Source of the DNA: an uncultured bacterium
GTDB taxonomy: Bacteria > Cyanobacteriota > Vampirovibrionia > Gastranaerophilales > Gastranaerophilaceae
Length of the DNA: 64,000 nucleotides
Direction: 5' to 3'
Assembly: GCA_949299935.1 (NCBI GenBank)
Contig: CASGCE010000033.1
Location: forward strand, 62,001-126,000
Positions 2-51,968 of this stretch are shown here, one piece after another. The translations under genes and the position numbers were made by a program. The notes beneath the pieces are model-generated. The model did no database searches and was not told where the DNA came from. It saw nothing but the letters and a program-made list of their open reading frames with translations. Numbering within the stretch: position 1 is the stretch's first letter; each line of letters starts with the position of its first letter.

Positions 2-436
2 GAAACAATATTCGATGAGATGGCAGAGGAAATGGGTGATGAATATGAGGTTCAGGAAAATCTTGCGATTGATCCAAAGTATTCGTATCAATCAAATTTA
101 GATAGAACAAATGATTTGAAGGTTGTAAATCATCCGAATTTCAGAGGTTATGAAGTGATTGTTATGGAACCGCGTTCATTTGATGATGCAGCGAGCATTG
201 TTCAATATTTGAAAGACAGAAAGACTATTGTGTTAAATTTACATCTTTTAGATAAGGAACAGTCACAGCGTACAATCGATTTTGTATGCGGAGCTGCTCA
301 TGCATTAAACGGTAAACCTCAAAAAGTTGGTGATTTGGTATTTGTATTCACTCCGAGTAATGTAACGTTGTCTGTTGAACTGAATGCAAACCAGAATAAA
401 TTTAATGATTCTTTGTGGAGAGCTCCTTTGCAATAG
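2..436 (+). CDS. sepF: Cell division protein SepF (5' end outside window)
   Basis: SepF anchors FtsZ to the membrane and helps assemble the Z-ring. The visible part holds the conserved C-terminal SepF domain: the stretch around FRGYEVIVMEPRSFDDA, then IVQYLKDRKTIVLNL and the DFVCGAAHAL helix, and the closing VFVFTPSNV strand. The frame is open to the left edge without a stop, and SepF proteins normally begin with a membrane-targeting helix that is missing here, so the ATG at 20 is an internal methionine and the gene begins before the window. ftsZ lies 2 kb downstream on the same strand, the usual neighbourhood in Gram-positives and Cyanobacteria. Family assignment is firm; only the start is unknown. 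Confidence 0.9.
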   Translation, partial: ETIFDEMAEEMGDEYEVQENLAIDPKYSYQSNLDRTNDLKVVNHPNFRGYEVIVMEPRSFDDAASIVQYLKDRKTIVLNLHLLDKEQSQRTIDFVCGAAHALNGKPQKVGDLVFVFTPSNVTLSVELNANQNKFNDSLWRAPLQ

Positions 437-481: not shown

Positions 482-507
482 AAGGGAATGAAAATTCCCT
501 TTTTTAT
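482..507 (+). terminator. Intrinsic terminator after sepF
   Basis: Eight-base-pair stem AAGGGAAT / ATTCCCTT with a GAAA loop, followed by a T-rich run. It ends the sepF transcript just before the promoter of the pilin gene. Confidence 0.8.
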
Positions 508-535
508 TGCCAAAAGTTTAGTAAAGTTGTATAAT
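507..535 (+). promoter_or_regulatory. Sigma70-type promoter of the G9-tract pilin gene
   Basis: TTGCCA (507-512), a 17-base spacer, and a perfect TATAAT (530-535). The ATG at 561 follows with a good ribosome binding site (GAGGTGGAAAGCA), so transcription and initiation signals are intact although the reading frame is interrupted. Confidence 0.7.
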
Positions 536-560
536 AGAAATATGAATGAGGTGGAAAGCA

Positions 561-1336
561 ATGAATAGCGTAAGTCTTAACGGGGGGGGGCTACTCCTCT
601 AAGTAGAAATAGCAAGGGTTTTGACCCTGAAGATATTGGGTGTTGTAATTCAAAACACTATTCAAAAAAAGGCTTTACCTTAGCGGAGGTATTGATAACG
701 ATAGGAATAATCGGTGTAATTGCGGCACTGACAATACCAACCTTGATAAGTAATTATAATAAAAAAGCCACTGCCGTACGTGTAAGAAAGACTTATGCAG
801 AGCTTGTTCAGGTCATTAAGCTGTCAGAGATTGAAAACGGTTCGATGGACACTTGGGATTTTCCGGAAAGTCGCAGTAAGGATAATACGCGAGCATTTGC
901 GAGAAAATATATTCTTCCGTATTACAAAAATTGTTTTGAATGCAGTGAGGGTTCAGATTACCGTTGCGGTCAAGCAATCAGCGGGCATGGAGTCAACTAC
1001 GGTCTTAGCAGTAGTGTAGGTATATCTGTTGTTGCAGAGCCAAGCACTTCTAAAAAAATTAATATTACCATTTCTGTACATAATTTCGGTTCCAGAACAC
1101 CCAGACAAGGGCGCGACTGGTTTTATTTTACTATTTCAAATGGTGTTATACAGCCTTTCGGGTGGCGTAAAGGCCTTACAAGAGAAGATATACTGGAGGA
1201 AAAAGTTCTTTATACTTGTAAATCCGTACAAAGAGAAAATCCTAAGGACGGAAGTGCTTTTTATTATGACAGATATGGCTGTACAGCATTATTTGTGCTT
1301 GACAATTGGGAGTTTAAAAACGATTATCCTTGGTAA
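561..1336 (+). CDS. Type IV pilin-like protein, frame interrupted at a G9 tract
   Basis: Pilin/pseudopilin with the class III signal motif KKG^FTLAEVLIT (about 665-700) followed by a hydrophobic helix (GIIGVIAALTIPTLIS) and a soluble C-terminal domain containing cysteines. The initiating ATG (561) with its ribosome binding site reads MNSVSLNGGG and then stops at 600-602. The pilin frame has a TAA at 578-580 and no ATG, GTG or TTG between that stop and TTG 692, which lies inside the signal motif. A net +1 base in the G run (582-590) joins ATG 561 to the pilin, giving 258 residues with a 38-residue leader. Known pilins are cleaved by a prepilin peptidase and assembled by PilB/C/Q machinery such as that at 59-64 kb. 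Whether the gene is switched off, expressed by slippage, or mis-sequenced cannot be decided from one consensus. Confidence 0.8.
582..590 (+). repeat. G9 homopolymer in a pilin leader (locus 1)
   Basis: Nine consecutive G in an AT-rich genome, flanked by TAAC on the left and C-T-ACTCCTCTAAG on the right. The same block recurs at 51181-51189. A small hairpin, AGGGT / ACCCT (615-628), lies 24 bases downstream. Candidate slippage site controlling the pilin frame. Confidence 0.85.
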
Positions 1337-2371: not shown

Positions 2372-3529
2372 GTGGAAAATTTCGTATCAGATATCTTTGC
2401 AAGAAAAGATGACACAACAAGCACTCCCGTGAATAGATCCCCGATAAACCCTACGAATATCAAGGTAGTCGGTGTAGGCGGAGGCGGTGGTAACGCAGTT
2501 AATCGAATGATAAAAGCCGGATTATCAGGTGTAGAATTTTGGTTGATGAATACAGATTTGCAAGTTTTGGAATATGGTCAGACAAAGAACAAAATTCAAC
2601 TTGGCGCGAATTCTACAAACGGTTTAGGCGCAGGCGGTGATCCGTCAATCGGCGAAAAAGCCGCAGAAGAAGCCCAACAAGAAATTACGAACGCACTTGA
2701 AGGTGCGGATATGGTCTTTATTACAGCCGGTATGGGCGGTGGTACAGGTACCGGTGCAGCCCCGATAGTCGCTAAAATCGCTAAAGAATTGGGCATTTTG
2801 ACAATCGCTGTGGTTACAAAGCCTTTCTCTTGGGAAGGTAAGAAAAGACAAAACCAAGCTGTTCAGGGTTTGGAAAAGCTCAGAGAAGCTGTTGATGCTG
2901 TTATCGTAATCCCTAATGATAAGCTGTTACAGGTGGTTGACAGACAAGTTTCATTGACTGAGTCATTCATTATAGTTGATGAGGTCTTATTAAGAGGTGT
3001 TCAGGGTATTTCAGATATTATTACTGTTCCCGGACTTATTAATGTTGACTTTGCTGATGTTAAAAATGTTATGCAAGCCTCTGGATCAGCTCTTATGGGT
3101 ATCGGTCGCGGTCAAGGTGAAGGTAGAGCTATTAAAGCTGCTGAAATCGCTATTAATTCTCAATTGCTCGAAACTTCAATTAATGGCGCATCCGGTGTAA
3201 TTGTTAATATTACCGGCGGACCGGATATGACTCTTCATGAAATTACTGACGCTGCAAATATTATTCATGATGCTGTACTTGATGACGCTACCGTTATTAT
3301 CGGTACTGCAGTTAATGAGAATATTCAAGGCGAAATTCAGGTTACAGTTATTGCTACCGGTTTTGAATTGAAAAATCAATCAGTTGATGAAAAACCTGAG
3401 GTTAGACAACTGAATGCGGCAGATTTCTTTGCTAGTACAGGTTCTTTTAATCAGCCTAGAAGAACTTCTATACCCGAAGTCTCACCGAGTTTTACAAATA
3501 TTGAGATTCCGGACTTTTTGAAAAAATAA
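2372..3529 (+). CDS. ftsZ: Cell division GTPase FtsZ
   Basis: Tubulin homologue that polymerises with GTP into the Z-ring. The 385-residue protein has the glycine-rich N-terminal motif [12 protein letters not shown], the tubulin signature [12 protein letters not shown], the T7 loop region, and a C-terminal tail with the conserved peptide IEIPDFLKK that binds SepF and other partners. It starts with GTG at 2372, eight bases after an AAGAGGT ribosome binding site. It is transcribed alone and closed by a terminator at 3558-3586. Length and motifs are normal for the family. Confidence 0.97.
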
Positions 3530-51153: not shown

Positions 51154-51968
51154 ATGAGTTTGTCTGGTTGCAGAAATAACGGGGGGGGGCGACTCCTCTA
51201 AGCCAACGTAGCCGTTGGATTCATGACAATAGGGATTGGTTAAAGTTATCAAGTGATTACTTAAAATTTAGAAAAGGATTTACCTTAGCAGAGGTGCTTA
51301 TAGCACTCGGAATAATAGGTATAGTTGCTGCACTTACTATACCGACTCTCGTTAAGAAATATCAAGAAAAGATAATGATAACTAAAATCAAACAGGGGCA
51401 CTCTTTGTTAATGAATGCTGTACAATTGTACATGGCTAAGAATAATTGTGTTAATGTTTTATGCTTATTTGATACAAAAAAAACTTCTGAACAAGTTGCT
51501 GCAGAGTTAGGTGAAGTATTAAAAGAGGCAAAATTATGTAAAACTGGTGATAATGATAAATTGTGCAAAGTATATTATTGTAAGGGCAACAAACCTATAA
51601 AAGTAGACGGATTTTATGCAGCCGGAGATGTTTTTCATGCTGCGGGCAGAGTATATCTTCCTAACGGCATGACTTTTCAAGTTTCTCAAAAAAGTGAATG
51701 CCCAAAGACAGAAGTATATATTATCCGAGATGAGAACGGATATGAAATCGGTACGCAGGAAAGGATTTCCGATTTATGTGCATACGTCTATATGGATATA
51801 AACAATGTTGAAGAACCCAATCAGTTCGGTGCAGATACTTATAGATATAATGTTGTATATTCGGGTAAAATATTGCCTCATGATGAAAAACTTTTGAATA
51901 ATGCGCTTTTGTTTAACAAACTTGAATATACACCGTATAATATTGGAGATCCGATTACTGAGGACTAG
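51154..51968 (+). CDS. Type IV pilin-like protein, frame interrupted at a G9 tract
   Basis: Pilin/pseudopilin with RKG^FTLAEVLIALGIIGIVAALTIP (about 51270-51345) and a soluble domain with eight or so cysteines. ATG 51154 has a strong ribosome binding site and reads MSLSGCRNNGGG, then stops at 51199-51201. The pilin frame has TAA at 51177-51179 and no ATG, GTG or TTG until GTG 51294, inside the signal motif. A net +1 in the G run (51181-51189) gives 271 residues with a 42-residue leader. The structure repeats that of the 561 gene in every respect. The end overlaps the convergent GT9 gene by four bases. Confidence 0.8.
51181..51189 (+). repeat. G9 homopolymer in a pilin leader (locus 2)
   Basis: Nine consecutive G, preceded by TAAC and followed by C-G-ACTCCTCTAAG, as at 582-590. 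A perfect hairpin CCAACG / CGTTGG with loop TAGC (51203-51218) begins 13 bases downstream. Candidate slippage site. Confidence 0.85.

Follow-up and report, generated by a model that had tools for sequence, protein, structure and literature searches.

A one-base frame offset at nine-base G or C runs in the leaders of a Gastranaerophilales pilin family

In the 64,000-nucleotide stretch of DNA analysed here (the window), the start codon of a pilin gene and the pilin itself lie one base out of register, with a run of nine G between them. How would such a gene be expressed, and is it alone in this arrangement? Our search of the literature on pilins or phase variation in Gastranaerophilales returned nothing relevant, and we addressed both questions by sequence comparison within the window, its genome and the genus.

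Two pilin loci with a displaced start

The features of both loci in the window are collected in Table 1. At locus 1, the initial annotation had described a promoter, a ribosome binding site and ATG 561 leading into a frame that soon closes, a pilin frame interrupted by a TAA at 578–580 and lacking a start codon before its prepilin motif, and an intact pilin of 258 residues, 38 of them leader, once a single G is added to the run. All of this was reproduced from the sequence. Translation from ATG 561 yields M-N-S-V-S-L-N-G-G-G-L-L-L-stop, and the first ATG, GTG or TTG in the pilin frame (phase 590/593 and onward) is the TTG at 692, inside the prepilin motif. The distance from start to run is a multiple of three, as in nearly all paralogues.

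The pilin body matches PF07963 (29.1 bits, cut-off 21.2) and TIGR02532 (26.6 bits, cut-off 16.3), and, as expected of a prepilin, a hydrophobic helix comes after its cleavage/methylation motif G-F-T-L-A-E. Its neighbours on either side are sepF and an NAD kinase gene (window positions 2–436 and 1410–2207), with an ftsZ-like ORF beyond them at 2372–3529. The second locus is of the same kind as locus 1. G or C runs of at least eight occur at just these two places in the window, both of them pilin leaders, compared to 0.2 matches expected from shuffled sequence.

Table 1. Features of the two pilin loci, in window coordinates
Feature	Positions	Strand	Remarks
Promoter-like site TTGCCA-17-TATAAT	507–535	+	11 of 12 consensus positions
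Shine-Dalgarno GAGGTGG	548–554	+	Sequence
Zero-frame mini-ORF MNSVSLNGGGLLL-stop from ATG 561	561–602	+	Start-to-run distance 21 nt
G9 run, putative frame switch or slippage site	582–590	+	C on either flank
Seven pyrimidines CTCCTCT	594–600	+	Can pair with G583–G589; loop GCTA 590–593
Zero-frame stop TAA	600–602	+	Four codons past the run
Pilin-frame part of long prepilin leader (ATPLSRNSKGFDPEDIGCCNSKHYSKKG)	591–673	+	
Mature type IV pilin-like protein (220 aa) and stop	674–1336	+	−1 frame of ATG 561
Second locus, zero-frame mini-ORF	51154–51201	+	Start-to-run distance 27 nt; TAA 51199–51201
Second locus, G9 run	51181–51189	+	
Second locus, prepilin leader (pilin frame) and pilin	51190–51968	+	TAG end 51966–51968

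A family of leaders with one run length and one frame relation

The genome that holds the window (Candidatus Gastranaerophilales; 1.68 Mb in 37 contigs) contains about 70 prepilin motifs and more than 50 G or C runs of at least eight, nearly all of them at prepilin leaders. We analysed 43 of its pilin loci with a G-run leader and eight with a C-run leader; about 20 further pilins have an ordinary SD-ATG-MKK..FTLAE start. A prepilin typically has a short, positively charged leader that prepilin peptidase cuts; leaders of the nine-run class span 38 to more than 150 residues, and some other pilins of the genome have ordinary short ones. Because many contigs break at G-run pilins (C4, C6, C8, C30, C31, C32, C33 and C34 end within or just after one), the true copy number is probably higher. 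By viewing a single locus, the initial annotation missed an arrangement that is family-wide and genus-wide, with a fixed −1 relation.

A motif search found the run motif in 13 of 16 genus genomes; the named relatives that share it are MAGs of Candidatus Gastranaerophilales, some of chicken origin. In the three motif-negative genomes and in two near-negative ones (one or three matches), G- or C-runs with other flanks are still present, at the leaders of pilins or a short way ahead of pilins, so the apparent absence of the motif from these five relatives is a limit of the pattern. Outside the genus, only two sampled genomes of the family gave a motif match, and scans of IMG/VR for further copies found none. 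The pilin repertoires are very large, with 17–117 prepilin motifs (117 in G003) in genomes of 1.5–2.2 Mb, G000 included.

Start codons were chosen by a simple SD score, and loci in other species were found by motif patterns, which bias the flanks and leave run length (above six) and frame unbiased. The run is exactly nine at 119 of 144 genus loci (91 of 113 G-runs and 28 of 31 C-runs), counts that overstate independence because paralogues share ancestry. Among these nine-long runs, 113 need one added base, that is, a −1 shift, to reach the pilin frame; of the other six, five are already in frame and one requires two bases. Among other lengths, ten and seven are mostly in frame: 9 of 12 G10 and 3 of 4 G7 runs are, and in-frame C10 and C7 runs also occur. 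Three exceptions in our own genome are L092 (G7, in frame), L009 (G10, in frame) and L101, where a T-run insertion puts G9 in frame. A listing from eight genomes with no filter on run length (n = 150) gave G9 119, G10 18, G8 6, G11 3, G7 3 and G6 1. In the five species with other flanks (20 loci, runs of 9–13), 12 runs need one base, three are in frame and five need two, a looser preference for the same +1 relation.

Could the nine be a sequencing or assembly error that undercounts a true ten, as the initial annotation had allowed? G-runs are hard to sequence, as noted for Bifidobacterium (PMC9187656). However, the same nine recurs at about 100 loci in more than 10 species, in data from several groups and different assemblers; C-runs behave alike, and elsewhere in these genomes or in their sister genomes the assemblies do contain runs of ten, eleven and thirteen. 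We regard this explanation as highly improbable.

The spacing around the run follows the reading frame. Start-to-run distances at G-runs are mainly 18, 21, 24 and 27 nt, and the run-to-motif distances take 32 distinct values from 29 to 470 nt, in steps of three. In several leaders (L034, L139, L141, L154, L164, L183 and others) in-frame repeat elements such as CHPEAKPKDLRRFFAGAQNDI are inserted between run and motif; these leaders reach 100–170 residues with the frame kept. Leader and mature pilin can also differ in history: in the pairs L152/L183, L165/L195 and L028/L093 the mature part is near-identical and the leader diverged, or the reverse, a pattern suggesting that pilin loci recombine or undergo gene conversion with one another.

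These leaders bear on a further alternative, in which translation begins at an internal start within the pilin-frame leader and the G-run is irrelevant. In-frame ATGs do lie close to the motif in many paralogues (MKNYSSRKGFTLAE), and in species G014 pilins downstream of a run bring a start and SD of their own. Against this, locus 1 and several others offer no pilin-frame ATG, GTG or TTG before the motif, the internal ATGs that we looked at have no SD before them, and the pilin frame of leaders stays open over as much as 470 nt. We consider an internal start unlikely.

The G014 loci (L366–L384) deserve separate description. Of the approximately 35 G9 or G10 modules in this species, the majority precede, by a few hundred bases, pilins that start from an SD and ATG of their own, and most of the modules that we read have an in-frame TAG directly after the run. 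Since these modules precede self-starting pilins, a length of nine can persist without selection on the pilin frame.

The immediate surroundings of the run are conserved as well. In 42 own-genome loci picked solely by a G-run of at least eight and a downstream pilin, C precedes the run in 42 of 42 and positions +5 to +10 are pyrimidines in 42 of 42. In this genome G9 is nearly always followed by CNN and seven pyrimidines, and all seven positions are pyrimidine in 41 of 41 aligned loci. Substitutions at +5 to +10 all exchange C and T, compared to about half transversions at +12 to +36. A zero-frame stop lies four codons past the run in 39 of 40 own-genome loci and 39 of 43 others.

The pyrimidine tract is predicted to fold back on the run with seven pairs and a four-base loop, at a mean energy of −10.1 kcal/mol versus −7.6 for synonymous recodings. 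Covariation of the outer pairs of this predicted hairpin was not above independence, and the fold of the complete leader has ordinary stability (z −0.62). A main fold in which the tract pairs with the Shine-Dalgarno region instead is disfavoured (0.62 versus 5.9 expected pairs). One idea is that the hairpin would mask the G-run; because the C-run leaders lack it, it cannot be a general requirement for a shift.

These C-run leaders form a second class (L012, L021, L022, L031, L046, L048 and L100 in our own genome; L204–L233), in which C9 follows a strictly conserved GCGGTTCAGATAGTCG and one added base is again needed. Read on the opposite strand, their core is G9-CGACT, the same as the core of the G9 class. 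This shared core could reflect chance, an ancient inversion or a site in the DNA.

Possible routes into the pilin frame

Although the sequenced state is out of frame, the pilins look functional. Complete nine-run ORFs are intact and full length in 67 of 69 cases, and in 21 disjoint family pairs the mature part has a dN/dS of 0.32 and the pilin-frame leader one of 0.62; judged by these ratios, the nine-run pilins are under purifying selection. Being intact and constrained, they are probably expressed at least sometimes. The initial annotation had offered an OFF phase or programmed slippage as explanations. Its premise that the run sets the frame holds, and both readings keep support from the in-frame variants G10, G7, C10 and C7.

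Our preferred explanation, with a probability close to even, is that expression involves programmed slippage on the run, RNA polymerase being the likeliest agent. A base gained at the nine-run would convert the displaced start into a full-length prepilin. By the commonest route RNA polymerase would add one nucleotide, the alternative being that the ribosome slips by −1 on G GGG GGG or C CCC CCC, and each nine-run gene would then yield a constant minority of in-frame product. The slippage, its step and its efficiency are what we infer from the sequence patterns. Several observations argue for programming at the level of expression. Run length and the −1 relation stay constant through many indels while the genes remain intact, and conserved nine-base runs in homologues, in that case of A or T, have been taken as a sign of purposeful transcriptional slippage (Baranov and colleagues, PMC1088944); an equal length of about nine is likewise kept in homologues here, among G-runs and C-runs together and among C-runs by themselves. 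In addition, G9 and C9 begin at different codon positions and are both nine, a pattern more readily explained by a polymerase than by a ribosome. Other points count against programmed slippage. About one fifth of loci have another length, and most ten-long runs are in the pilin frame, which shows that the tract changes in DNA. The best documentation of programmed slippage by RNA polymerase concerns A/T runs, whereas the runs here are G or C. The G014 modules, too, count against it, since nine persists there without serving the pilin frame.

Were the ribosome responsible, the RNA would be left unchanged and a programmed −1 frameshift would occur at the heptamer. Both run types do present a slippery heptamer of the X XXY YYZ type, G GGG GGG or C CCC CCC, in zero-frame phase, and a zero-frame stop is nearby. 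However, the 5′ arm of the predicted hairpin is the run itself rather than a structure 5–9 nt downstream, which rules out the conserved hairpin as a standard −1 stimulator. A shortage of cognate tRNA behind ribosomal slippage was ruled out too, as tRNA-Gly(CCC) and tRNA-Pro(GGG) are both present. Given also the constant nine in two codon phases, we consider this mechanism rather unlikely.

In surface genes, a long G-run most often acts as a switch by replication slippage. The pilins could accordingly form a contingency repertoire in which nine is a resting OFF state, ten (or seven) is ON, and few of the approximately 50 pilins are ON at once, giving surface variation among cells. This is a serious possibility, to which we assign somewhat less than even probability. 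As at contingency loci, a homopolymer in the 5′ coding region sets the frame, its length varies (G7–G11 in the genus) and in-frame states occur. Tens and sevens are mostly in frame, ten is the commonest length after nine (18 of 150), and lengths differ inside one module (G10 and G11 in G005; G10 and G13 in G013). These are also surface proteins with many paralogues, and there are precedents in the G-tracts of Bifidobacterium sortase pili (PMC9187656) and in Campylobacter (PMC4965091). Yet the spread of lengths is far narrower than in C. jejuni, whose phase-variable tracts are G8 257, G9 214, G10 431, G11 77 and G12 9 (PMC4965091). Were nine merely an OFF length, a +2 relation would serve as well as +1, and +2 is found at only one of 119 nine-long runs; almost all nine-run pilins are, moreover, intact. 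Finally, the mismatch repair genes MutS1 and MutL are found in our own genome, which rules out loss of mismatch repair behind mutable runs there and which we count in favour of RNA-level programming.

Programmed slippage and a DNA switch are not exclusive, and both may act. Changes in DNA length would overlay slippage as a slower genetic switch, with ten and seven in frame and eight and eleven further out. It is tempting to extend this to the genus: in a family of about 50 pilins per genome, programmed slippage at G9 or C9 in a cleaved leader would serve as a shared dimmer and DNA length as the slower second switch. We hold this proposal tentatively, at a little below even confidence. Because the slipped residues lie in the presumably cleaved leader, the run would be a volume control only and the mature pilin would be unchanged.

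Implications and comparison with known systems

If this proposal is true, it describes an unusually large bacterial set of paralogues under one shared frame-shifting signal, placed in a leader that is cut off, such that control is limited to amount or timing. The loci also offer a natural test of the shares of replication, transcriptional and ribosomal slippage at long G/C runs, with about 50 near-replicate loci per genome, both orientations and natural G7–G13 variants as material. They are, further, a warning that most pilins of these gut bacteria will be overlooked or cut short by annotation pipelines.

Neither G-runs that set a reading frame nor slippage on runs of nine bases is new in kind. 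In the literature that we searched, we found no description of a genus-wide family of about 50 pilins with a single −1 G9/C9 leader run.

The nearest functional parallel is, by analogy, the pilus G-tract of Bifidobacterium. In B. breve, also a gut commensal, a 5′ G-tract splits the gene of a sortase-dependent pilin into two frames that a base change restores (PMC9187656). Those are sortase pili at one or two loci with G10–G12 tracts, and length variation was measured there; here we find type IV-type prepilins at about 50 loci, a nine-run in G and C versions and a fixed −1 relation. Similar to our genome, C. jejuni has many frame-setting G-runs in surface-related genes (PMC4965091), but their lengths extend over G8–G12 and the ON length is gene-specific, whereas here a single paralogue family shows one dominant length and one relation to frame. 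Ordinary phase-variable loci likewise mix lengths and ON phases, unlike the fixed −1 relation of these pilins.

On the side of expression, the A9 run of Thermus thermophilus dnaX and the runs of IS elements (PMC1088944) resemble our loci in being nine-runs of conserved length with a stop of the other frame close behind. They differ in consisting of A or T and in belonging to single genes or to IS elements, whereas the runs here are G/C, lie in a presumably cleaved leader across a whole paralogue family, and would slip only by our reading of the sequences. Ribosomal frameshifting in prfB, the gene of bacterial release factor 2, and in dnaX (PMC5009743) also pairs a short zero frame and its stop with a product that needs a frame change; it uses other shift sites and stimulators, in contrast to the pilin leaders, which have no correctly spaced downstream stimulator.
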